DNA of 48,849 nt, from the IMG/VR virus record IMGVR_UViG_3300005578_000006, positions 1 to 48,849 of that record. One strand, given 5' to 3'. Below the pieces are notes generated by a model. That model worked only from the letters and a program-made list of their open reading frames with translations. It searched no databases and was not told the origin of the DNA. Positions 9,236 through 31,958 of the stretch are shown in pieces (the stretch's first letter is position 1; each line of letters opens with the position of its first letter). This stretch comes from a virus. The position numbers and the translations under genes are program-made.

Positions 9236-10231
9236 ATGACGACTGCAGTGCTGACGCCGAAGAACGTCGGCTCGACCCAGCAGCTGTCCGGGACGGTGTT
9301 CCGGAAGCAGGTGCTGCCCAAGGGCACGATCACCTACAAGGGTCGAACCGTGAAGTTCGACGACACGTATCTGGACGGCCTGGTGGACTCCTTCCAGAAG
9401 GGCGCGTTCGACCAGGTGGCGTTCCAGCTCGCCGACAAGGACAACGCTCACACGAACGACCCGGAGCGCACTCGCGGTGAGGTCATCGGTCTGGAGAAGA
9501 CCGGTGATGGCCTGGACATGATCGTCAAGCTGAGCAACGAGGGTGCTGCGCTGATCAGCAGGAACCCCAAGCTCGGTGTGAGCGCCCGCATCTTCAACGG
9601 GCTCGAGCGTTCCGACGGTGCCACCTTCCCCTGTGCGATCCAGCACGTTCTGGGGACACTGGACCCGGTGGTGGTCGGACTGAAGCCGTGGGAGTCGATC
9701 GAGCTCTCCGGCCAGGTCGAGGAGACGTGGGACTTCTCGTCGCAGGCGTACCCCGAGCCGGCACCCGTCGAGGAGACGGACGAGGAGGACGAAACCGAGG
9801 ACGAGACGGTCGACGAGCAGCAGCTCGCGCTGACCGCACTCGCTCGCACTCAGGCTGAGAGGGAGGTGTTGGACTTGTCGACGCAGCAGAGGCAGCGGGA
9901 GCTCTCGGAGCTGACCGCGCAGGCAGCTCGGATTCGGGCGCTGGAGTTGGAGTTGTCGCGCTCCCGCTTCGACAACGAAGCGGCGCAGCTGGTTGGCCGA
10001 GGCGTGCCACCGGTGCTGATCGAACTGGCTCGACCGATCCTCGAGCTGCCCGAGTCGAACGTGATCGAGCTCGCCAATGGGTCCAGCGTCGACCCGGCCG
10101 GCGTGATCCGACAGATCCTCAAGCAGTGCGAGGGGACGATCGAGCTGTCCATGGAGCGCGGTCACAGCATCGACGTCGACGACACGGAGAAGGCGCGTGA
10201 GGATGCACTCCTCGCCGCCTGGAAGATCTGA
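9236..10231 (+). CDS. Prohead protease-scaffold fusion
   Basis: 331 residues from ATG behind GAGGAGG. The N-terminal ~175 residues resemble herpes/Mu-I type prohead proteases. A His occurs in DNAHTNDPERTRG, a Ser in PKLGVSARI (likely nucleophile) and a second His in IQHVLGTLDPVV, which gives a His-Ser-His set. After an acidic stretch (about 180-200, EETDEEDETEDE) comes a coiled coil (about 205-255) and a C-terminal tail, as expected for a scaffold. It should shape the prohead and then cleave itself and capsid protein. Gene order protease, decoration, capsid agrees. Confidence 0.78.
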   Translation: MTTAVLTPKNVGSTQQLSGTVFRKQVLPKGTITYKGRTVKFDDTYLDGLVDSFQKGAFDQVAFQLADKDNAHTNDPERTRGEVIGLEKTGDGLDMIVKLSNEGAALISRNPKLGVSARIFNGLERSDGATFPCAIQHVLGTLDPVVVGLKPWESIELSGQVEETWDFSSQAYPEPAPVEETDEEDETEDETVDEQQLALTALARTQAEREVLDLSTQQRQRELSELTAQAARIRALELELSRSRFDNEAAQLVGRGVPPVLIELARPILELPESNVIELANGSSVDPAGVIRQILKQCEGTIELSMERGHSIDVDDTEKAREDALLAAWKI

Positions 10232-10245
10232 GGGAGGTGTAGAAC

Positions 10246-10692
10246 ATGGCAAACGCTGTTCCTGCCTACGAGAGTGGGCCGATCACCTACCAGGTCAACC
10301 AGGCGGTTGTTGGTGGTCAGATCGTTCAGCTGGACACCGGTGGTATGGTCAAGCCCGCGGTGGCGAACTCCGTCATCGCATTGGGCGTCGCGACCAAGGA
10401 CGCCATCCCGACCGGCACGAACCAGAACCCGACGGTCGTCGGCGTGCCGCAGTCCATCAACCTGTCGCCCATCTCTGCGTACACGGCCGTGGCGATGACG
10501 GGTGTGTGGCGTCTGACGAACGGTGGTGGTGGCGCACTGGCTCTGGGTGACCTGGTCGTGTGCGCGGCATCCGGTGCAGTCCAGAAGTACACGGCCGGCA
10601 CCAGCACGTTCGACCAGATCATCGGCAAGTGCGTCGACCCCGCTGGCATCGCAGCCGGTCAGGTCGGGCTCATCCTGATCGACACCGTCTGA
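10246..10692 (+). CDS. Capsid decoration protein (DUF2190-like)
   Basis: 148 residues, GGGAGGTGTAGAAC before the ATG. Features of DUF2190 decoration proteins are visible: an early beta stretch (GQIVQLDTGGMVKPA), an IALGVATKDA strand, and late GDLVVCAASGAVQKY and QVGLILI. Such proteins cap the capsid lattice and stabilise filled heads. It sits directly before the capsid gene with an almost identical SD region, suggesting similarly high expression. Confidence 0.75.
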   Translation: MANAVPAYESGPITYQVNQAVVGGQIVQLDTGGMVKPAVANSVIALGVATKDAIPTGTNQNPTVVGVPQSINLSPISAYTAVAMTGVWRLTNGGGGALALGDLVVCAASGAVQKYTAGTSTFDQIIGKCVDPAGIAAGQVGLILIDTV

Positions 10693-10712
10693 GAAAGAGG
10701 GAGGTGTAGAAC

Positions 10713-11633
10713 ATGGCACTCGTGCCAATCATCGGCTCGTCCGATGGTGTGCGGATCACAGTCAACGACATGGTGAAGTCGCCCAAGATCATCCCCAGGC
10801 GTATCCTGGACTTGATGGCGAACAACTTCCTCGCTGACGCGATCCTGCGGGACGCCGGTCAGAACGACGCCGGTGTCGCGTACTTCTTCCAGTCGCAGCC
10901 ACTGTTCGCGGACTACAACTCGACCATCCGAGAGGAGTGGGGCGAGTACCAGATCGTCACCACCTCCGACGGTACGCCGACGATCGCGACCTCGCTCGAC
11001 CGCGGCCTGTCGATCAAGGTGTCCGACGAGATGCGTCGCCGGAATCAGGTCGACCGCGTCAACATCCAGCTGACGCAGGTCAAGAACAGCCTGACACGAG
11101 ACTGGGACCTCGCGTTCCAGGCCTCGATCATCGGCTCGGTGGCCACAGTGGTGGACGTGTCCGGTACCCGTCCGTGGGACGGCACCGGTACCACGCCGAC
11201 GATCCGCAAGGACATCCTGACCGCCAAGAAGGCGGTTCAGACCGCGTTGTCGTCGGCGCAGACGAACAACTACTTCGGCTTCATGCCGGACACCATCGTG
11301 ATGAGCCCACTCGGGCAGTACGACATCACGACGGATGCGACGTTCAACACCGTCTACCAGGGCAACAACTCGAACGAGAACCTGCTGTACACCGGCAAGC
11401 TGCCGACGCAGATCCTCGATCTGGACCCGCTGGTGTCGCTCACGTGGCCGGACAACTACGTCCTGGTCTGCGAACGGAAGACCATCGGGTTCATCTCGGA
11501 CGAGGTGTCGCTGCGGTCGACGCCACTGTACCGGGACGAGGTGCACAAGACCTGGCGGGCGGATGTCAACCGACAGTCCCTGATGGGCATCGACCAGCCC
11601 CTGGCCGGCGCCCTCATCAAGATCCACACGTGA
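10713..11633 (+). CDS. Major capsid protein
   Basis: 306 residues, HK97-type by size and position. The N-arm (about 1-60) leads to a helix-rich P-domain (DQGLSIKVSDEMRRRN-like region) and ends with a compact beta strand. A characteristic capsid stretch is YFGFMPDTIVMSPLGQYDI, and the E-loop region near ADYNSTIREEWGEY is plausible. It lacks a long N-terminal delta domain, in keeping with the separate scaffold fused to the protease. Its SD (GGGAGGTGTAGAAC) repeats that of the decoration gene. Confidence 0.88.
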   Translation: MALVPIIGSSDGVRITVNDMVKSPKIIPRRILDLMANNFLADAILRDAGQNDAGVAYFFQSQPLFADYNSTIREEWGEYQIVTTSDGTPTIATSLDRGLSIKVSDEMRRRNQVDRVNIQLTQVKNSLTRDWDLAFQASIIGSVATVVDVSGTRPWDGTGTTPTIRKDILTAKKAVQTALSSAQTNNYFGFMPDTIVMSPLGQYDITTDATFNTVYQGNNSNENLLYTGKLPTQILDLDPLVSLTWPDNYVLVCERKTIGFISDEVSLRSTPLYRDEVHKTWRADVNRQSLMGIDQPLAGALIKIHT

Positions 11634-22954: not shown

Positions 22955-23272
22955 ATGGCTGACACGAACGCACCGGTAGAGGCGAAGGTCAAGGTCGGTA
23001 CGGCGGCGACGCTCGTCACCGCACTGGTGACGGGTCTGCTCGCCACGTACGTCTTCCACGGTGTGACGCCGGACTTCGTGAACGAGGGCATCTCCGCCAT
23101 CGTCACGGGCGGTGTGGGCTTCATCGCGATGTGGCTGACGAAGCACACACCGCGGAACATCGTCGACCTCACCGTGGACGACAGCAAGCCCCCGACGGCG
23201 TTCGAGCCGAACATGACTTCCGGACCGATCGGTGTGGAACCGACCGATCCGGCGTCGCCGAACGCTCCCTAG
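22955..23272 (+). CDS. Holin
   Basis: 105 residues with two hydrophobic helices (about 14-34, ATLVTALVTGLLATYVFHG, and 47-63, GISAIVTGGVGFIAMWL), a short turn and a Pro-rich polar C-terminus. This matches actinophage holins that open the membrane for the endolysin encoded just before it. Its TAG overlaps the stop of the convergent polymerase gene within CCTAGG, so no terminator separates the two arms. Confidence 0.75.
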   Translation: MADTNAPVEAKVKVGTAATLVTALVTGLLATYVFHGVTPDFVNEGISAIVTGGVGFIAMWLTKHTPRNIVDLTVDDSKPPTAFEPNMTSGPIGVEPTDPASPNAP

Positions 23273-25902
23273 GCTGCTGTCTGGTTCGTGAGGTAGGTCT
23301 CTACCTCTCCGAGTGACGGTCCCACCTCGACATCCACGAACAGCTTGATGTGGGTCTCGTACGGTGGGGTCGTCATCTCGCGGATGATGATCGGCATGGC
23401 CTCGTCCAGACGGTCCTCCCTGATCTCGAACACCAAGGAGTCGTGGACGGTGAACAACACCACACCAAGGTCCAGTTCCCGCAAGATGCGGTTGAGACGG
23501 ATCAACGCACTCAGACAGGTGTCCGACGCCAACGACTGGATGGGGAAGTTGACCGCCTGGTTGCGGATGTGGTTGATCTTGTCCGGCGTGATGAGTCTCC
23601 ACCGTCGGACGCGACCAGTTGGTGTGCGGAGCTCACCTTCCGTGAGGGCCGCCTGTTGCCACCCGTCGTAGGCCTCCTTGTACAGCGGATACTGCTCCCA
23701 GAAGCGGTCCACGTACATCTGAGCCTGACGTTCGTTTCCGCCAGTCAGTTCATGCAGTTCACCCTGTGCCAAGCTGTACGCCTGTCGACCGTACGCGATA
23801 CCGAAGGTGACGAACTTCGAGTTGAACCGCTGGTCACCGGTCACCTGGTCGTATGGCGTGTTGAAGATGGCAGATGCTGTAGTGGTGTGGAAGTCCTGTT
23901 CCATGAGCGCGACGCCCAGGTTTGGATCCTTTGAGTAGTGCCACGCGATGAACAGCTCGAGGTTCTTGTAGTCGATGTCGACGATCACGTGACCGGGGCT
24001 CGCCTTGATGCACTTCCGGACCATCTTCGCCATCTTGGGGTTGACACCCCACTTGGGCAGCGTCTGGAGTGCCGGCTTCTGGATCGACAGCCGACCCGTA
24101 ACCGTTCCGAACAGCAAGAAGTCCGGGTGCAGCCGTCCGTCGCACCACGTGTTCTTCGCCATCGAGCGGATGTAGTTCCGGAGCAAGTGGTCCCGCTCCT
24201 TCAGCTCTCCCATCAGCTTCGTCAACGGGTGGTTAGTGTTGTACTCCCACAGACCGGCGTCTGCCGACCGCTTCCGATCCGGGTGCCGCATCCCGAGGAT
24301 GTCGAACGCAAGGTGCTGCAGCTGTTGTGGCGACCGAACGTTGATCTCCAGGTCCGGGATGAGCACGAACCGGCGCTTCATGCACTTCTTGCAGCTCTCG
24401 TCCGGGTACCCCGCCTGGATGCGCTCCTGTCGCCACTGACGACGGTCAGGCCCGGGTGACCAGAAGCCACTCACCTGTGCATCCGTCGCGAGACACTGCT
24501 CACTGCACTCCGGGCAGACGATGGCTTTCTTCTGCTGTCCGACGACCGAATCGTCGTACGGGAACCCCTCACCCTGTGCATACGCCTTGATGGCTCGCTC
24601 CGCTTCCTCGATGAGCGGAAGCCACTCTTCCTCGAGCTCCTCCGTGTACACGAGGTCGGTCAACGTACCGTGGTACTCGAGGTCGGAGAACGCTCTGGCT
24701 GCGGGGTGCAGCAACTCCTCGACGAGCTCCTGCGTACCTTCCTCCCACACGAGTGGTGGCAGAATGTCGCCAAGCTCGTACGTGTTGTACACGTCGAGAC
24801 AGCCGTACTTGCCGAGTGCCCACCACTCCGCGTAGTTGCGCGGACCGACACTCCACTTGAAGCCGCTCTCGACAAGCTCCTTTTCGTAGTACGACGCGTT
24901 GAGGTACGATCGGGAGAGTGCCTTCAGACCGACTTGCTCGCCTCGCTCCGTCAGGCCGAGACCGTACAACATCGTGTCTCGTACGTCCTCCGGCTCGGGT
25001 AGGTCGTTCGCCCGGATCACCTGGAGGTCGTACGACATGTTGTGCATCCGCCACTGGATGCCGATCTTGCACAGGAGGTGTGCGAGCCGCTCCATGAACT
25101 CCGGTACCTTGAGGAGGTGCCTCATGTTGAACGCGTACGCTTTGCGACCGGCGTACAGCTGCAACATGATCCACTCGTCCTCGCCCGGGATGGGTCTCGG
25201 ACCGTCATTGGGTGCGACCGACTCCGTGTCGAGCGACACCTTCAGCGTCTGGAACGCGTCACGCTCGATCTCGTGCAGCGCCTGAATCGACCTGGTGACA
25301 GTCCCACAGAGTTCCCAGTCCAGCTCGAAGTGCCTGTCAGGGAGCGGAACTTGGCCGGTAGACATCCTCACGGCTCGCCGTGTGTCGTCGAAGATCGCAT
25401 CGAAGTAACCGGTGTTGCCATGGAGCACTGCTGCTGGATGGTACGTTGGCAGCACAAACGACTCGACCTGGTCGTTCCAACTCATCGTACCCTGGATCTT
25501 GGTGATGCCGTCTGACGTGCCGGTCAACGCTTGTGCAGCAGTGGCACCAGCAGCTAGCACAACCTTCGGCGAACGCGACGCGATTTCGGACGTCAGCCGC
25601 TGTGAGCATGCTGCGATCATCTCCTTGGTCGGAGGGGAGTCCGCTCCGTCCTTTCCCGTTGGCGGTCTGCACAGGACGGTGTTGGTCACGTAGACCTTGT
25701 TGCGCGTGAGACCGACCTCCTTGAGAGTGGCGTCTAGCAGACGACCACTCGGACCAGAGAACGGGCGTCCAGAACGAACCTCGTCTCGGCCAGGCGCTTC
25801 TCCCACCACCACAAGGTCTGCTCGGTCCGGACCATCTCCAGCGCACTGGGGTCCTCCCATGGGACAATCAGCACAGGCTGGTCTGGTTGGTCCATCGGTC
25901 AC
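23269..25902 (-). CDS. Uracil-DNA glycosylase-DNA polymerase A fusion
   Basis: 877 residues from GTG behind GGAGGAGGGA. Residues ~1-180 are a family 4-type uracil-DNA glycosylase (GEAPGRDE at 34-41, PFSGPSGRLLD, HPAA near 155). About 215-375 is a DnaQ-like 3'-5' exonuclease (LDTE at 224-227, HNMSYD at 287-292, YGCLD ending at D370). About 460-510 holds a C-x2-C...C-x2-C zinc ribbon (CPEC, CKKC). The rest is family A polymerase: TGRLS, motif A DIDYKNLELF, motif B RFNSKFVTFGIAYG, motif C VHDSL, where HDE is usual. It replicates phage DNA; the glycosylase may screen for uracil. Confidence 0.9.
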   Translation of the reverse strand: MTDGPTRPACADCPMGGPQCAGDGPDRADLVVVGEAPGRDEVRSGRPFSGPSGRLLDATLKEVGLTRNKVYVTNTVLCRPPTGKDGADSPPTKEMIAACSQRLTSEIASRSPKVVLAAGATAAQALTGTSDGITKIQGTMSWNDQVESFVLPTYHPAAVLHGNTGYFDAIFDDTRRAVRMSTGQVPLPDRHFELDWELCGTVTRSIQALHEIERDAFQTLKVSLDTESVAPNDGPRPIPGEDEWIMLQLYAGRKAYAFNMRHLLKVPEFMERLAHLLCKIGIQWRMHNMSYDLQVIRANDLPEPEDVRDTMLYGLGLTERGEQVGLKALSRSYLNASYYEKELVESGFKWSVGPRNYAEWWALGKYGCLDVYNTYELGDILPPLVWEEGTQELVEELLHPAARAFSDLEYHGTLTDLVYTEELEEEWLPLIEEAERAIKAYAQGEGFPYDDSVVGQQKKAIVCPECSEQCLATDAQVSGFWSPGPDRRQWRQERIQAGYPDESCKKCMKRRFVLIPDLEINVRSPQQLQHLAFDILGMRHPDRKRSADAGLWEYNTNHPLTKLMGELKERDHLLRNYIRSMAKNTWCDGRLHPDFLLFGTVTGRLSIQKPALQTLPKWGVNPKMAKMVRKCIKASPGHVIVDIDYKNLELFIAWHYSKDPNLGVALMEQDFHTTTASAIFNTPYDQVTGDQRFNSKFVTFGIAYGRQAYSLAQGELHELTGGNERQAQMYVDRFWEQYPLYKEAYDGWQQAALTEGELRTPTGRVRRWRLITPDKINHIRNQAVNFPIQSLASDTCLSALIRLNRILRELDLGVVLFTVHDSLVFEIREDRLDEAMPIIIREMTTPPYETHIKLFVDVEVGPSLGEVETYLTNQTAA

Positions 25903-26036: not shown

Positions 26037-26212
26037 TACGTTCTCTCCTTCAAGACGATGACTGCACCGAACACGCACAACCCACATACGAGCACACCGA
26101 CGATCGCCGCCCAAAGTGTCTGGACTAGCGCGATCCAGATCAACTCCGCGACGAGAGCGATCACTAGGGTGACGACTATGCTCCAGTCTCCGGTCCGGGC
26201 TGGATCGGCCAC
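26036..26212 (-). CDS. Two-span membrane microprotein (58 aa)
   Basis: GTG start behind GGGAGAGGGTGAC. It overlaps the end of the upstream gene and shares one base with the downstream GTG (TAGTG). Hydrophobic helices lie at about residues 11-31 (SIVVTLVIALVAELIWIALV) and 34-53 (WAAIVGVLVCGLCVFGAV), with a short basic tail. The two spans and the coupling to neighbours support a real gene. Role unknown. Confidence 0.6.
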   Translation of the reverse strand: MADPARTGDWSIVVTLVIALVAELIWIALVQTLWAAIVGVLVCGLCVFGAVIVLKERT

Positions 26213-26871
26213 GTCACCCTCTCTCCCTTAGCGGTCAACCCCTCGTGGATGGTGCCGTCGTGTCCCTTCCGTATCGTGCACCGAAGTTGCACGGAGTGGT
26301 GGTCGTGTCTGTCCGCACATGGGTAGATGCGGTACGGGTTCCCGTTCGCCTTCCACGCGAACCGGCGAGGGTCGTTGCCCGGTGGGTATCCCTCGCACTC
26401 AATCTGGTCGTGACCGAACTCCAGGATGCACAGGAGTGGGTGTCCCTTGTGTGTCCGGGCTTCCCTGCACAGCGATTCGTTGTCCAGGATCTCCGGCGGG
26501 TACCCGCGTGTCTTGCTCAACGTATTTGTGTTGCCCGGTTCCGATCTGACCGTATTCGACGAATTAGCGTTGGAGAGTTGGTCTCGACAAGCCAGGTACG
26601 CAGCGAACGTCAGGATCCCGTACGCAGCGAGATCCAGGTAGGTGTCCTCGACCGCCTCGTTGACCGGTGCACGTCCGTTCTCCCGGAGTGCGTGGAGCCG
26701 CTCCAGCTTCTGGACGACGTTGAACTCCGCCGCCTCGTACGGTGTGAGTCCGAACTGCTCTCCCGTGCGGCGGAAGTTGGACCACGGGTCTGCGTCGACC
26801 TGGTAGTCCGCTCCCTTCGCTCCGAGGATGTCCTGGAGCTTCTCGAACGCCAGCTTCAGGTGGTCTGTCAC
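26176..26871 (-). CDS. DUF1599 (nucleotide modification-associated) protein with Cys/His tail
   Basis: 231 residues; GTG chosen because TGGAGGT lies at the right distance and the codon overlaps the upstream stop (GTGA). Residues ~1-95 match DUF1599/Nmad1: DPWSNFRRTGEQFG, QKLERLHALRENG and NEAVEDTYLDLAAYG. This MazG-like domain is linked with modified-nucleotide systems. After a low-complexity linker (about 100-130) comes a repeated C-x-HPLLC-x4-GHD and C-x5-GHDGTIHEG type Cys/His module. The linker DNA is a family A box on the opposite strand, so the two halves may once have been separate genes. Confidence 0.68.
   Translation of the reverse strand: MTDHLKLAFEKLQDILGAKGADYQVDADPWSNFRRTGEQFGLTPYEAAEFNVVQKLERLHALRENGRAPVNEAVEDTYLDLAAYGILTFAAYLACRDQLSNANSSNTVRSEPGNTNTLSKTRGYPPEILDNESLCREARTHKGHPLLCILEFGHDQIECEGYPPGNDPRRFAWKANGNPYRIYPCADRHDHHSVQLRCTIRKGHDGTIHEGLTAKGERVTWPIQPGPETGA
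26531..26558 (+). promoter_or_regulatory. Family A box inside a leftward gene
   Basis: TTGCCC, 16 bases with CCGATC, TATTCG-ACGAATTAGCG, preceded by CAAC-N8-GTTG. It is antisense to the DUF1599 gene and encodes its linker. The spacer is one base short, so it may bind the regulator without being a good promoter. Confidence 0.5.
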
Positions 26872-27005
26872 TCCGTGTACCTCCAGATCGTCAGGTCCAT
26901 CACCTTGTAGACCAACCACACCACTCCTGTGCAGAACAGGACGGCGGTGACCAGCAACACCGCGGATATGAACCCGAGGATAGCCAGCAACGCCACCGTG
27001 TCCAC
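26868..27005 (-). CDS. Single-span membrane microprotein (45 aa)
   Basis: GTG start with AGGGGG five bases away; both ends overlap neighbours (TAGTG and GTGA). Residues ~3-33 (TVALLAILGFISAVLLVTAV, LFCTGVVWLVYKV) are hydrophobic enough for one long or two short spans, with a polar tail (DLTIWRYTE). A longer upstream in-frame start would cover the preceding gene and lacks an SD. Function unknown. Confidence 0.55.
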   Translation of the reverse strand: MDTVALLAILGFISAVLLVTAVLFCTGVVWLVYKVMDLTIWRYTE

Positions 27006-27383: not shown

Positions 27384-28820
27384 TCAGAACTTATCGACCG
27401 CGTACTCGGTGGGGTCCTCGACCTTCGCCATCCTGAACGCGATCTTCCGCATCGAGCACGGACCGCAGTCGCCGCAGTGGACGTCCCCGTTCTTGTAGCA
27501 CGACCAGGTGTGCTCGAACGGCATTCCCTGGCTCGCACCGAGCTGCACGATGTCGTGCTTCATAGCGCCAGCGAGAGGGTCACTGAACCTCACCCGGGTG
27601 TACGGCTTGACCGCGTACGGGATGAGGTCGCGCCACTTGTTGACGAACTCCTGCTCGTTGTCCGGGTACCCACCGCACGACTCCTCCTGGTTGGAGCCGA
27701 GAGCGATCGTGTCGTACCCGTGCTTCTCCGCGTAGGCCACCGCCAGTGCGAGCATGACCGTATTGCGTGCGGGCACCCACTCGTGAGCGAACTCGGCACC
27801 CTCCTGCCCCTGTGCGATCTCCGTTACGCCGTCCGTGAGGGGGCTGTCCGCGTGCTCCGTGAAGAAGTCCATCTTCACGTAGTGGACCTTCGGGTCGTTG
27901 ACACCTTCTCCCTCCATCGCATTCGCGAGCGACTCGACCGCACGGACTTCGTGCTTCTCCGAACGTGTGCCGTACTGGAAGTGCAACAGGTCGACGTGAT
28001 TGCCCGTCCGGTGGTGCAGCCACGCGACCGTACCGCTGTCCAGGCCCCCACTGCACACGACCAGCGTACGCGGCCGCTTCGGGCGTTCGTACAGCGACCA
28101 GTGCTGGTGCTCGACACCTTGAACGTACCCCGCTCGGTACGGTCCGAGTTCCACAGGTGAGGGGTCGAGCAGTGGGTTCTCGACTAGGCCCATGAGGTAC
28201 GCCTTCTGAGACGCGAACAGCACTCGGTCACCGTGCGTGCTGCCGAGCATGAACAGCGGCTTGTAGTTCGTGGCGTACCACATCTTGTCGGGCTGGTGTC
28301 GATTGACGGCCAGGATCGCGAACGACCCCTGCAGCCGAGCAAGACCTGCCTGGAATCCCCACATCTGGAACGCCATCGCGATCACGTACGAGTCGATCCG
28401 CGTGGGGGGCTTGAACGGCAGTCCTTCTTCCGTCCCAGCGTTGAACTCGTCGATGATCTCCTGGTCGTTGGAGATCGTCCCGTTGTGCACGATCGTCCAG
28501 TCCGCATGGGTGAACGGGTGCATGTCGTCGAGTGAGGGGTTGAGCACCCACTCGTGTGCCGGCTCTCCGCGCCGCGTACCGATGACGGTCGACTTCACCA
28601 AGTTCGGGAGAACCATCGCGTTACTGGATCCGGCAGCGTCACCCTTCTTCGTGACGGGATCGCTCATGTCCCACGGTAGCTGAGTCAGTCCCCACGTGTC
28701 CCGACCGCGTTCCTCCGACTCCTCGAAGAGGACGGCAAGTGCCTCTGTGTGGTCCGTGTTGATCGCCGACTCCAAGACGTGCGACCCGCCACCGAACAGC
28801 GCACCGAAGATGCTACACAT
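27384..28820 (-). CDS. gat-queC: GAT-QueC: amidotransferase-preQ0 synthase fusion
   Basis: 478 residues from ATG behind GGAGGGTGCG, so Cys2 becomes the N-terminal nucleophile (MCSIFGALFG). Residues ~1-245 are a class II glutamine amidotransferase (VHNGTISN at 111-118). Residues ~250-478 are QueC with the PP-loop SGGLDS (257-262) and a C-terminal zinc site (SCYKNGDVHC, GDCGPC). QueC makes 7-cyano-7-deazaguanine from carboxydeazaguanine and ATP. The fused domain is thought to supply ammonia for a further amidation to the archaeosine base, as in crenarchaea and coliphage 9g. Last gene of the modification cluster; no terminator precedes the next promoter. Confidence 0.9.
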   Translation of the reverse strand: MCSIFGALFGGGSHVLESAINTDHTEALAVLFEESEERGRDTWGLTQLPWDMSDPVTKKGDAAGSSNAMVLPNLVKSTVIGTRRGEPAHEWVLNPSLDDMHPFTHADWTIVHNGTISNDQEIIDEFNAGTEEGLPFKPPTRIDSYVIAMAFQMWGFQAGLARLQGSFAILAVNRHQPDKMWYATNYKPLFMLGSTHGDRVLFASQKAYLMGLVENPLLDPSPVELGPYRAGYVQGVEHQHWSLYERPKRPRTLVVCSGGLDSGTVAWLHHRTGNHVDLLHFQYGTRSEKHEVRAVESLANAMEGEGVNDPKVHYVKMDFFTEHADSPLTDGVTEIAQGQEGAEFAHEWVPARNTVMLALAVAYAEKHGYDTIALGSNQEESCGGYPDNEQEFVNKWRDLIPYAVKPYTRVRFSDPLAGAMKHDIVQLGASQGMPFEHTWSCYKNGDVHCGDCGPCSMRKIAFRMAKVEDPTEYAVDKF

Positions 28821-29013
28821 TCGCACCCTCCGGCAAGTCGAACTCACCGTTCTTGACACCCTCGAGGAACGTCAGCCACTCCTCAGGAGTGAACCACGTC
28901 TCCGCTCCCACGGGGTTACGCACACCGACGTGTGGGATGCCGTCCTGCACGTTGACCTGAACTTCAACGCACCCTGTCTCCCGGCAGAAGCTAGACTTCT
29001 TCCACTCTCCCAC
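28813..29013 (-). CDS. DUF397 domain protein (66 aa)
   Basis: GTG start with AAGGAG at about -12. The whole protein is a DUF397 domain: WKKSSFC, ETGCVEVQVNVQDG, then VRNP and FTPEEWLTFLEGVKNGEFDL. In actinomycetes these small proteins pair with XRE regulators or act as anti-sigma/antitoxin-like partners. In this phage it stands alone between dpdA and gat-queC, overlapping both (23 and 8 bases). It may be captured from the host and act on a host regulator. Confidence 0.85.
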   Translation of the reverse strand: MGEWKKSSFCRETGCVEVQVNVQDGIPHVGVRNPVGAETWFTPEEWLTFLEGVKNGEFDLPEGANV

Positions 29014-29791
29014 GAAGGTACTCCTTCCACGTGTTGATGTTGGTCCTGACGTCCTTGATGAGGTTCACGGCGTGGTCACCGTCGTCCAGCTGGTAGTCGA
29101 AGTACTCCATCCGACCACCGAGGGATTGGCGTCCCGGGTACGCAGGGAACGGGGTCTCGTTGGGGTCGACGTAGATGCCGTTCAGGCCCCAGACCACGAA
29201 CTTGGCGGTGTCCGCCGTTCGGACGTTGCGCATCATGAACGGGTGGGTGATGTCGAGCAGGTCGTCCTGCACACCAAGCAGGTGGATGTTGTACCCCGGC
29301 GGTACGCGGTTCAGCACCTGACGAACGACCTCCGCACGGGAGATGCCGAAGAGCTCCTGCACCTCCTCCTGGATGCCGAACGTGGTGACGCCCGGGATCA
29401 GTTCGAGCTCCTTGACGCTCAGCATGTACTCGCCGAGGTCCTTGCCGTGTGGCACCGCCATGAACGTACCGTCGTACCCGTTCTGGCGAAGCGCACGAGA
29501 CGCATCGAAGCTCTGTTGCAGCGTCAGACGTCGATCGTGGACGTCGTCCGGCAGAACGACCTCCGAGGGCCTGACGCGACGAACCGCCTCGATCAGGTCC
29601 TGGATGCTGATCGCCGCACCCTCGAACGCGGCGGTGTCCATGATGACGAAGTCGTTCAACGCGACTCGCGACGCGTAGTACGTCGCGTAGTCGACGTGCT
29701 TGAGCACCTGATCGGCGATGCACAGGTGGTGGGTCAAGTACGGTGGCAAGAGCGACGTCTCTCTCGCCGGTGGGATGTGGCACAACTCCAT
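28991..29791 (-). CDS. dpdA: DpdA-like DNA 7-deazaguanine transglycosylase
   Basis: 266 residues, ATG behind GATGAGGTAAC. A TGT-like barrel of the short phage DpdA type: FVIMDTAAFEGAAISIQD, EVVLPDDVHDRR with the acidic pair, TFMAVPHGKDLGEYMLSV and YNIHLLGVQDDLLDI. DpdA exchanges guanine in DNA for a 7-deazaguanine base made by the neighbouring enzymes. The C-terminus (RMEYFDYQLDDGDHAVNLIK) is the usual end. It overlaps the DUF397 gene by 23 bases. A CACCTGTGC motif lies in its first codons in the frame HLC. Confidence 0.82.
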   Translation of the reverse strand: MELCHIPPARETSLLPPYLTHHLCIADQVLKHVDYATYYASRVALNDFVIMDTAAFEGAAISIQDLIEAVRRVRPSEVVLPDDVHDRRLTLQQSFDASRALRQNGYDGTFMAVPHGKDLGEYMLSVKELELIPGVTTFGIQEEVQELFGISRAEVVRQVLNRVPPGYNIHLLGVQDDLLDITHPFMMRNVRTADTAKFVVWGLNGIYVDPNETPFPAYPGRQSLGGRMEYFDYQLDDGDHAVNLIKDVRTNINTWKEYLRGRVEEV

Positions 29792-29792
29792 G

Positions 29793-29900
29793 TTACCTCA
29801 TCACGTAGTGCCAGATGTAGTACGCGTACAGCAGGAGGCCGTACGCACAGAGTGGTGTGGCCAGCAACGCGACCACGATGGCAGCTAGCGCACGCTTCAC
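29793..29900 (-). CDS. Membrane microprotein between folE and dpdA (35 aa)
   Basis: GTG start overlapping the folE stop (GTGA). One hydrophobic helix (ALAAIVVALLATPLCAYGLL) is followed by an aromatic tail (LYAYYIWHYVMR) with two basic residues up front. It ends just before the dpdA ATG. The tight packing inside an enzyme operon argues against chance. No known role in deazaguanine synthesis. Confidence 0.55.
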   Translation of the reverse strand: MKRALAAIVVALLATPLCAYGLLLYAYYIWHYVMR

Positions 29901-30580
29901 GACAGCTGGGTCAGAGCGATGAACTCGTCTCGGGCGGATGCTTCGTTCAAGAACACACCGCGTACCGCTGACGTAACGGTTTCCGCGTGCGGTTCTTGGA
30001 CTCCGCGCAAGGTCATGCATCCGTGAGCAGCCTTGACGACGACCATGACCCCCTTGGGCTGAAGGTACGTTTCGAGGGCGTCCGCGATCTGGTCCGTGAC
30101 CGACTCTTGTACGCCGAACTGGCGTGCGAAGTGGTGAGTCACCCTCGCCAGCTTTGACAACCCGCAAACCGCACCATCCGGCAGGTAGCCAACCCACGCC
30201 CTACCCACGACGGGCAGTAGGTGGTGGGCACACATGGACACGTAGCTGATCGGACCGACCTGAACCAGGCTGGTGTGCTGATCGCTGAAGGCGACCTCCA
30301 ACAGCTTGCCGGCCTCCTCCATCGAGCCGTTCTTGTGGAACGACTCCAGCACCTGTGCAGCCCGCGCCGGCGTCCGCTTGAAGTGCTGGTCGTTCCGGTC
30401 GTACCCGAGCAGGTCGAGGATCTGACCGAGGTGGTGCTCCAGCAGCTCTCGCGTAGTGGGCGGAGCCTGGTTGGTGTCCTCCGCGTACCCCCGAGTCACG
30501 TCGAGACCGTTGTCCGACATGTGACGTCGACCCATCCCCGCGATCGTGTTCGCGAGTTCCGCGTAACCGTCTGTGGCCAC
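29897..30580 (-). CDS. folE: GTP cyclohydrolase I
   Basis: 227 residues, GTG start with AAAGGGG. Converts GTP to dihydroneopterin triphosphate, the first step to 7-deazaguanine. Family motifs are RTPARAAQVLESF, the zinc site CAHHLLPVVG, the substrate loop VCGLSKLARVTHHFARQFGVQE and a second zinc Cys in AAHGCMTLRGVQ. Full length. Encoded between queE and dpdA, so it raises flux into the phage modification pathway independently of the host enzyme. Confidence 0.93.
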   Translation of the reverse strand: MATDGYAELANTIAGMGRRHMSDNGLDVTRGYAEDTNQAPPTTRELLEHHLGQILDLLGYDRNDQHFKRTPARAAQVLESFHKNGSMEEAGKLLEVAFSDQHTSLVQVGPISYVSMCAHHLLPVVGRAWVGYLPDGAVCGLSKLARVTHHFARQFGVQESVTDQIADALETYLQPKGVMVVVKAAHGCMTLRGVQEPHAETVTSAVRGVFLNEASARDEFIALTQLS

Positions 30581-30635
30581 TCACTTGCCCCTTTCATCAC
30601 CGTACAGCAACGCGTGCTGACGGAGCGGAACTTGC

Positions 30636-31385
30636 TCACTTGTCCTCTTCGGCACCAAACAGGAGGACGTGGTCGCGCAGCGTCATGTTGAACCGCCGGT
30701 CGAGGATGGGGCGTTCGAGCTTGCGGACGGTGTCGAGCAGCTTCGGGCCGTTCTCGCCCTCAGGCATGATCCACACGTTGTGCGGGTCGATCTGGATGGC
30801 GGAGACGATGTCGTCGACCTCCTGGAGGTCCGCTTCCGTCTGCACCACGAACTTGAAGTCCGCACCGAGCTCGCGGAACTCCGTCAGCACACCGGGCACG
30901 TACCGCTCCTCGAGCGCGTTGCCGCTGTGGCTGAGCTTGGGACTCACGTTCCACTGGATGCCACCAACGAGACCCGGGATGGCTCGCGGTGACCGTGTAC
31001 CGGACGTCTCGAACGAGAGCGACCAGTCTCGTCGGTCGTTGTCGAACGCCGTGACCAGTTCCTCCATCGCATCGATCTGGAGCAACGGCTCCCCACCGCT
31101 GATGATCACCAGGCCGCCACGCGGCATCATCTCACCGAGCTCGTCCACGGCACCCTGAACGTGAACCCGCCGCATCTCCTTCTCGGGGTCGTACGGCTTC
31201 TCCACCGTCGCGTGCAGCTTCACCTGTCGCTCCGTGAACACCCACGTGAACGGCGTGTCACACCACGAACAGTGGAGGTGACACCCGCCTGTGCGAATGA
31301 ACCCAGCGTACTGCCCGCGCTGGCGACCCTCCCCCTGCCAGATCGGACCGTAGATCCGCGTCACCAACAAATCCCGATTCGTCAC
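30636..31385 (-). CDS. queE: 7-carboxy-7-deazaguanine synthase (radical SAM)
   Basis: 249 residues; GTG chosen because the codon overlaps the upstream stop (TAGTG) and AAGGAGAC lies before it. Radical-SAM signature C-x3-C-x2-C at residues 35-42 (CHLHCSWC), an early IYGPIWQGEG substrate loop and VIISGGEPLLQ. It converts carboxytetrahydropterin, the QueD product, to carboxydeazaguanine. The two other steps are encoded on either side. Confidence 0.92.
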   Translation of the reverse strand: MTNRDLLVTRIYGPIWQGEGRQRGQYAGFIRTGGCHLHCSWCDTPFTWVFTERQVKLHATVEKPYDPEKEMRRVHVQGAVDELGEMMPRGGLVIISGGEPLLQIDAMEELVTAFDNDRRDWSLSFETSGTRSPRAIPGLVGGIQWNVSPKLSHSGNALEERYVPGVLTEFRELGADFKFVVQTEADLQEVDDIVSAIQIDPHNVWIMPEGENGPKLLDTVRKLERPILDRRFNMTLRDHVLLFGAEEDK

Positions 31386-31471
31386 TACCTGTCTCCTTGC
31401 CGGGCCGGAACCCACTCGTCGAACCATGTGTCATTCGGGTACGTCTTCACGAGTCTCGGTTCACTACTCAC
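31385..31471 (-). CDS. Possible linker ORF between queD and queE (28 aa)
   Basis: A 28-codon ORF (VSSEPRLVKTYPNDTWFDEW...) that overlaps the queD stop by eight bases and ends in the TAGTG overlap with queE. Its SD is weak (GGAC). It is acidic/aromatic with no fold signature. The coupling geometry is the only support. It may serve to carry ribosomes from queD to queE. Confidence 0.3.
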   Translation of the reverse strand: MSSEPRLVKTYPNDTWFDEWVPARQGDR

Positions 31472-31958
31472 CTCCGTCCTGTCGGATCCATCCGGAGTCC
31501 CAGTCTGCGCCGTTGACGTTGGTCTCACCAACTTCCACTCGGACGCGAAGTGCCCACGCGAAGTTCGCCACCGCCCACTCGCCGATCCACCGCGAGACGT
31601 TCTCGATGGAGGCGTCACCATCCCGGATGATGAGACCCGGAAAGAGTGCGTCGAGTGCTCCGTAGTCGTAGTCGACACCGTCCTCGGTCTCGATCTCGAA
31701 CCGCTTGACGATGGGGTCCTGTTCGCACAGGTGGAAGTGGTGGTCCCACACCGTGTCGATGTACTCCCGGAACAGCTTCTTGACCGCACCGAAGTCCTGT
31801 CCGGCCAGGATTCCGTCCGCATCCACCTCACCGTACAGGTACATCGTGATCTGCAGCGAGTGACCGTGGATCCGGAGGCACTTCCCGGAGATGCCGGAGG
31901 AGAGGCGGTGAGCGATCTCCGCGTTGTGTTGGACGCGGAGTCGCTGCACCTCCCCCAT
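31464..31958 (-). CDS. queD: 6-carboxytetrahydropterin synthase
   Basis: 164 residues, ATG overlapping the upstream stop (TGATG). Zinc and catalytic residues of QueD are present: HNAEIAHRL, the nucleophile region SGKCLRIHGHSLQI with HGH, and a DHHFHL segment. It converts dihydroneopterin triphosphate (FolE product) to carboxytetrahydropterin. It is the first pathway gene of the cluster. Confidence 0.9.
   Translation of the reverse strand: MGEVQRLRVQHNAEIAHRLSSGISGKCLRIHGHSLQITMYLYGEVDADGILAGQDFGAVKKLFREYIDTVWDHHFHLCEQDPIVKRFEIETEDGVDYDYGALDALFPGLIIRDGDASIENVSRWIGEWAVANFAWALRVRVEVGETNVNGADWDSGWIRQDGGE

Follow-up and report, generated by a model that had tools for sequence, protein, structure and literature searches.

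The stretch of DNA analysed here, hereafter the window, is an IMG/VR virus record of 48,849 bases. A cluster of genes for 7-deazaguanine modification of DNA lies on its minus strand, running from 31958 to 27384 in the order QueD-QueE-FolE-DpdA-DUF397-GAT-QueC. All five of the named cluster genes (QueD, QueE, FolE, DpdA and GAT-QueC) are uninterrupted and score well above chance. The features of the locus are as follows:

31464-31958, minus strand: QueD (6-carboxytetrahydropterin synthase), 164 aa; Pfam PTPS 8e-15, PHROG QueD 2e-20
30636-31427, minus strand: QueE (radical-SAM 7-carboxy-7-deazaguanine synthase), 263 aa; PHROG QueE 1e-39
29897-30580, minus strand: FolE (GTP cyclohydrolase I), 227 aa; Pfam GTP_cyclohydroI 3e-55, NCBIfam subfamily above cut-off
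28991-29791, minus strand: DpdA-type DNA-guanine transglycosylase of the CP220/immuto family, 266 aa; family profile, AlphaFold2 and Foldseek
29357-29377, minus strand: putative base-specificity loop of DpdA, residues 139-145 GIQEEVQ with E142-E143; collinear with residues 230-235 of tRNA-guanine transglycosylase (TGT)
28813-29013, minus strand: DUF397 small protein, 66 aa; Pfam DUF397 1e-9
27384-28820, minus strand: GAT-QueC fusion (class II glutamine amidotransferase and preQ0 synthase), 478 aa; Pfam QueC 2e-52, GATase_6 3e-12
26176-26919, minus strand: DUF1599-like gene; Pfam 5e-5, below cut-off
23269-25902, minus strand: fusion of a family-4 uracil-DNA glycosylase (UDG) domain, N-terminal, to DNA polymerase A

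The catalytic motifs can be read directly from the translations: KCLRIHGH (supplying the Cys and a zinc-binding His), WDHH and IEN in QueD; the cluster-binding CHLHCSWC in QueE; and CAHH with HGC in FolE. In GAT-QueC, the ATG at 28820 (MCSIFG...) places the catalytic Cys at position 2, and the protein retains, beyond Cys2, the HNG, SGGLDS and C-x7-C-x2-C-x2-C motifs of the amidotransferase, PP-loop and zinc sites, respectively. A longer ORF with a GTG start at 28859 was rejected, as it would bury the catalytic Cys. Together with the family matches, these motifs confirm a preliminary description of the locus, which held that FolE, QueD, QueE, GAT-QueC and a short DpdA were all present and intact. 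Its remark that no QueF is seen likewise agrees with our searches, in which QueF, ArcS and a 9g-type DpdA gave chance-level scores only in the window (best E ~0.04). No tRNA gene was found in the window, and a near-identity search of the phage collection with the window returned no match.

The DUF397 ORF overlaps both the stop of DpdA and the start of GAT-QueC, which makes translational coupling of all three genes probable; no counterpart of this small protein was found in related loci. DUF397 is an actinobacterial domain. Given its presence, the best matches of the terminase to Streptomyces phages (~45%) and a GC content of 0.59-0.64 across the window, the virus is probably an actinophage, as had been proposed. 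The accompanying expectation, that the GAT fusion would newly extend archaeosine-like DNA to actinophages, has been overtaken by the GAT-QueC-bearing actinophages Megan and StAugustine (with DpdA1), which are already in GenBank.

The identity of the transglycosylase required more sensitive comparisons. Against Pfam and NCBIfam, the window DpdA matches no family above cut-off, with Pfam DUF6610 falling below it, and the closest proteins among cultured phages, those of Weizmannia and Bacillus phages, lack a name or carry a wrong one and are encoded between FolE and DNA polymerase A. Single-sequence scans of IMG/VR with either the window DpdA or GAT-QueC recovered no relatives; alignment queries were needed, and the alignment-based scan returned 48 DpdA relatives, most of them beside QueC, QueD, QueE and FolE. 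A family profile built from IMG/VR contigs, with the window and every named phage left out, finds the window protein (1.9e-49), the immuto 'DNA guanine transglycosylase' (5.6e-44) and CP220 gp056 (2.4e-31), the last being its single match in the CP220 record. It also matches proteins of Youna2, BSTP5 and StAshley and, weakly, a HVTV-1 gene adjoining FolE (0.0019) and the nt-1 DpdA2 (0.012), and no other protein in those phage stretches reaches an E-value of 10.

An AlphaFold2 model of the protein (pLDDT 93.7) retrieves TGT in 50 of the 50 PDB matches listed by Foldseek (best E 2.8e-8, probability 1.00), so structure comparison bridges a distance that the family sequence profile, when run against the PDB, does not. 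The alignment points to Asp52, Asp82 and Asp194 as the catalytic aspartates; D52, E57, H170, G173 and D194 are invariant across 45 diverse relatives, and D82 is nearly so. Placed by collinearity and the predicted fold, D52, D82, H115 and D194 of the TIM barrel correspond to D102, D156, Q203 and D280 of TGT. Both the tree and the profile, which contains neither the window nor CP220 nor immuto, place the protein in the CP220/immuto family. It has no match to the DpdA1 profile (the 9g/CAjan type), and its loop reads GIQEEVQ against the TGT-like GG[ML]VG. Thus, as judged from sequence and predicted fold, the window DpdA is not of the 9g type but one of a divergent family, for the most part without annotation, that includes the CP220 protein. 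Such a family was reportedly named DpdA3 and tied to complete replacement by Cui et al. in 2023.

The profile is now on hand to annotators for a family whose members are mostly recorded as hypothetical proteins. Three such proteins are clear members (E <1e-40): those of Cellulophaga phage phiST (L188, 9001-9780), Aeromonas phage Ahp1 (L189, 3980-4852) and Vibrio phage D479 (L190, 5968-6825). All three phages carry FolE, and phiST and Ahp1 also QueE, with no QueC nearby. The hypothetical protein HVTV1_69 of halovirus HVTV-1 (L062, 13803-14963), which adjoins FolE, could be the transglycosylase so far unaccounted for in this virus.

The combination seen in the window is a recurrent one. Among 80 IMG/VR loci with GAT-QueC, most have DpdA1, and a CP220-type DpdA occurs in L064-L069, L010, L011, L013 and L137, to which L149 was added later; thus about ten other uncultivated phages share the pairing. 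The full QueD-QueE-FolE-DpdA-GAT-QueC order is common to the window, L064, L065, L066, L068, L069 and L149; L010, L011, L013 and L137 have the DpdA and GAT-QueC pairing. As in the window, the module is followed by the DUF1599-like gene in L064-L067, and the UDG-polymerase A fusion is kept downstream in L064-L069 and L137. In the GAT-QueC tree, the window groups with L149, L065, L066 and L069 (98% SH-aLRT), and L010, L011 and L013 fall apart from this clade, among DpdA1-type loci. Single-sequence searches found no cultured phage with the pairing, and we know of no phage bearing it for which the chemistry has been established. In a separate variation, L007 has, at 10224-10898, an ArcS-like (DUF5591) gene that replaces the amidotransferase fusion, with a class-III aminotransferase and a SurE-like gene as neighbours.

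TGT tells preQ1 from guanine by means of a loop that follows barrel strand six, in which a flip of Leu231/Ala232 is coupled to Glu235 (PMC3660597). The stretch of the window DpdA collinear with this loop, G139-I-Q-E-E-V-Q, directly follows the predicted strand 135-141, and its composition varies with the linked biosynthetic genes. The form xEE is present in 10 of 11 GAT-linked DpdA proteins from distinct contigs in the HMM alignment, the eleventh (L137) showing VEE on direct reading, and in none of the 34 linked to QueC, QueF or ArcS. Lys or Arg at 142, mostly as P-K/R, marks 25 of the 29 QueC-linked proteins and no GAT-linked one, and Asp143 is found in all four QueF-linked proteins, whose QueF identity was confirmed. 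The QueF-linked proteins of L023, L024, L030 and L055 have S-x-D-Y in the loop, a possible preQ1 signature. The ArcS locus L007, which lies within the window DpdA clade and lacks GAT (ArcS-like gene, 2.4e-8), retains E142.

The association of GAT with EE (Fisher p = 3e-9, with the relatedness of the rows ignored) was noticed after inspection, among proteins that share ancestry. When the N-terminal half served as query for a fresh sample, one further GAT contig came up (L149, with IEE), along with several QueC contigs, none of them with EE. On the DpdA tree, GAT and EE change together four times, with only two to four independent pairs. We tested whether the EE loop arose convergently, and the AU test does not show it (p 0.54): one common origin for all GAT-linked DpdA proteins is not rejected, even though L010/L011/L013 stand apart from the window clade in the GAT-QueC tree. 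Nor is the EE loop a general requirement for 2'-deoxyarchaeosine (dG+), because the 9g-type DpdA makes dG+ without it; between the DpdA1 loops of the 9g type and CAjan there is only a small difference, A/S versus R, seen in one sequence, and we do not count it in favour of the loop reading.

Among the candidate bases, preQ1 bears an amine and preQ0 is neutral. The formamidine of archaeosine base (G+) carries a formal positive charge (PMC5485725). The EE, PK and D forms of the loop hence track how the 7-substituent would be charged, given the biosynthetic genes at each locus. The simplest reading of this pattern suggests that the two acids of the window loop recognise the cationic G+, in which case the base would be made before insertion and inserted ready-made.

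By homology, FolE, QueD and QueE would convert GTP to 7-carboxy-7-deazaguanine, from which the QueC domain would make preQ0, and the amidotransferase domain would supply ammonia to give cationic G+, as proposed by analogy with 9g. The G+ so formed would be recognised by the loop residues E142/E143 and inserted directly by DpdA, which is predicted to act on completed DNA, swapping guanine for the modified base by way of a TGT-like covalent intermediate at Asp194. Archaeosine in the phage DNA should then block host restriction enzymes. The parts of this scheme differ in strength. The window GAT-QueC aligns over its full length with those of 9g, Megan and StAugustine (36-41% identity), with Cys2, HNG, SGGxDS and the zinc cysteines kept, so that dG+ is quite likely the main product; the intact gene set supports the earlier proposal of a complete dG+ pathway with GAT-QueC. 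Replacement of guanine by archaeosine in the DNA of the phage itself, with G+ formed prior to insertion, is in our estimate the probable explanation overall. The order of steps taken by itself would be an even call, with synthesis before insertion the best single reading of the loop sequences.

The question of order has a precedent in 9g, for which Hutinet et al. state that it is not known whether G+ arises before or after insertion with GAT-QueC (PMC6884629). In the principal alternative, DpdA would insert preQ0 first and GAT-QueC would convert dPreQ0 to dG+ on the DNA, leaving the EE loop as a mark of lineage or a docking surface for GAT-QueC. We give this somewhat less than an even chance. 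Archaeal tRNA does receive preQ0 that is subsequently amidated (PMC6884629), dpdA adjoins gat-queC in the module, and the AU result accommodates one origin of the EE proteins. Against this, the loop forms follow the expected 7-substituent charge of each gene set, and the ArcS locus keeps E142. Furthermore, when the DpdA of 9g acts by itself in E. coli, little of the host's preQ0 enters the DNA, 790 dPreQ0 per 10^6 nt, as against the 45,000 dG+ per 10^6 nt for which 9g GAT-QueC and DpdA suffice (PMC6884629). As the charge change in the insertion enzyme tracks the biosynthetic genes, the step order left open in 9g becomes directly testable by two-residue mutants.

An improbable alternative has mainly dPreQ0 or dADG as the product, owing to an amidotransferase domain that lacks activity or acts in another way. 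Mixed products are indeed known from Vibrio phage nt-1, which has an ArcS homologue (PMC6884629), and dADG from CP220, which has a member of the same DpdA family (PMC8306585); however, the class II amidotransferase residues are intact in the window and conserved across the module loci, and 9g and Vid5, both with GAT-QueC, have dG+ (PMC6884629, PMC8306585). Action on RNA (tRNA archaeosine or queuosine) or provision of preQ0 to the host, for which the TGT fold shared with tRNA enzymes and the tRNA TGTs heading the PDB matches could be cited, is highly improbable given the absence of a tRNA gene from the window, the shorter length of its DpdA (266 versus ~380 aa for TGT), the phage setting of family members, whose genes lie next to polymerase A and others for replication, and the fully modified DNA of CP220, whose record holds one member of the family.

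Turning to known systems, the nearest cultured relatives of the window DpdA, in Weizmannia phage Youna2 (31%) and Bacillus phages BSTP5 and BSP7, are likewise encoded beside DNA polymerase A and preQ0 genes; these phages differ in having plain QueC and an IPK loop, and their DpdA is annotated as hypothetical or misnamed. Conversely, Microbacterium phage Megan and Mycobacterium phage StAugustine resemble the window as actinophages with FolE, QueD, QueE, GAT-QueC and a DpdA, but the latter is a DpdA1-type transglycosylase and the gene order is unlike that of the window. In Megan, DpdA1 is present in two tandem copies, which lie upstream of GAT-QueC (L002, 670-2543).

Campylobacter phage CP220 and Flavobacterium phage immuto share the DpdA family, its length of ~260 aa and the catalytic residues. 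Their loops read SGD or SFD rather than QEE, immuto carries QueF, and no GAT-QueC was found in the stretches of these phages that were examined. In CP220 and CPt10, 100% of dG is reported to be replaced by dADG (PMC8306585), a precedent that concerns dADG and not dG+; the 9g genes in E. coli replaced 9-18% of dG. The paired acids of the loop hint at extensive or even total replacement in the present phage. We hold near-complete replacement of dG less likely than not, and we consider it more doubtful still that near-total replacement by direct insertion of free G+ should hold jointly with a DpdA loop (P-K/R, x-E-E, x-D) that constitutes a readable 7-deazaguanine code.

The coliphage 9g shares with the window FolE, QueD, QueE, a GAT-QueC fusion (36% identical), the lack of QueF and the expected dG+, and the window, from a probable actinophage rather than a coliphage, belongs to the dG+ class by gene content, with these intact genes and a DpdA-type transglycosylase. 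The preliminary description went further in equating the two sets. The DpdA1 of 9g and the window DpdA are deeply diverged subfamilies (13% identity in the alignment), the DpdA1 profile misses the latter, and the gene order and the polymerase neighbour (UDG-PolA in the window) differ as well. The original observation was therefore correct and its expected product mostly so, whereas the insertion enzyme is a different one from that assumed. The window thus couples a dG+ pathway with a transglycosylase family linked to complete exchange of guanine, and this union predicts phage DNA in which most or all G positions hold a cationic base.
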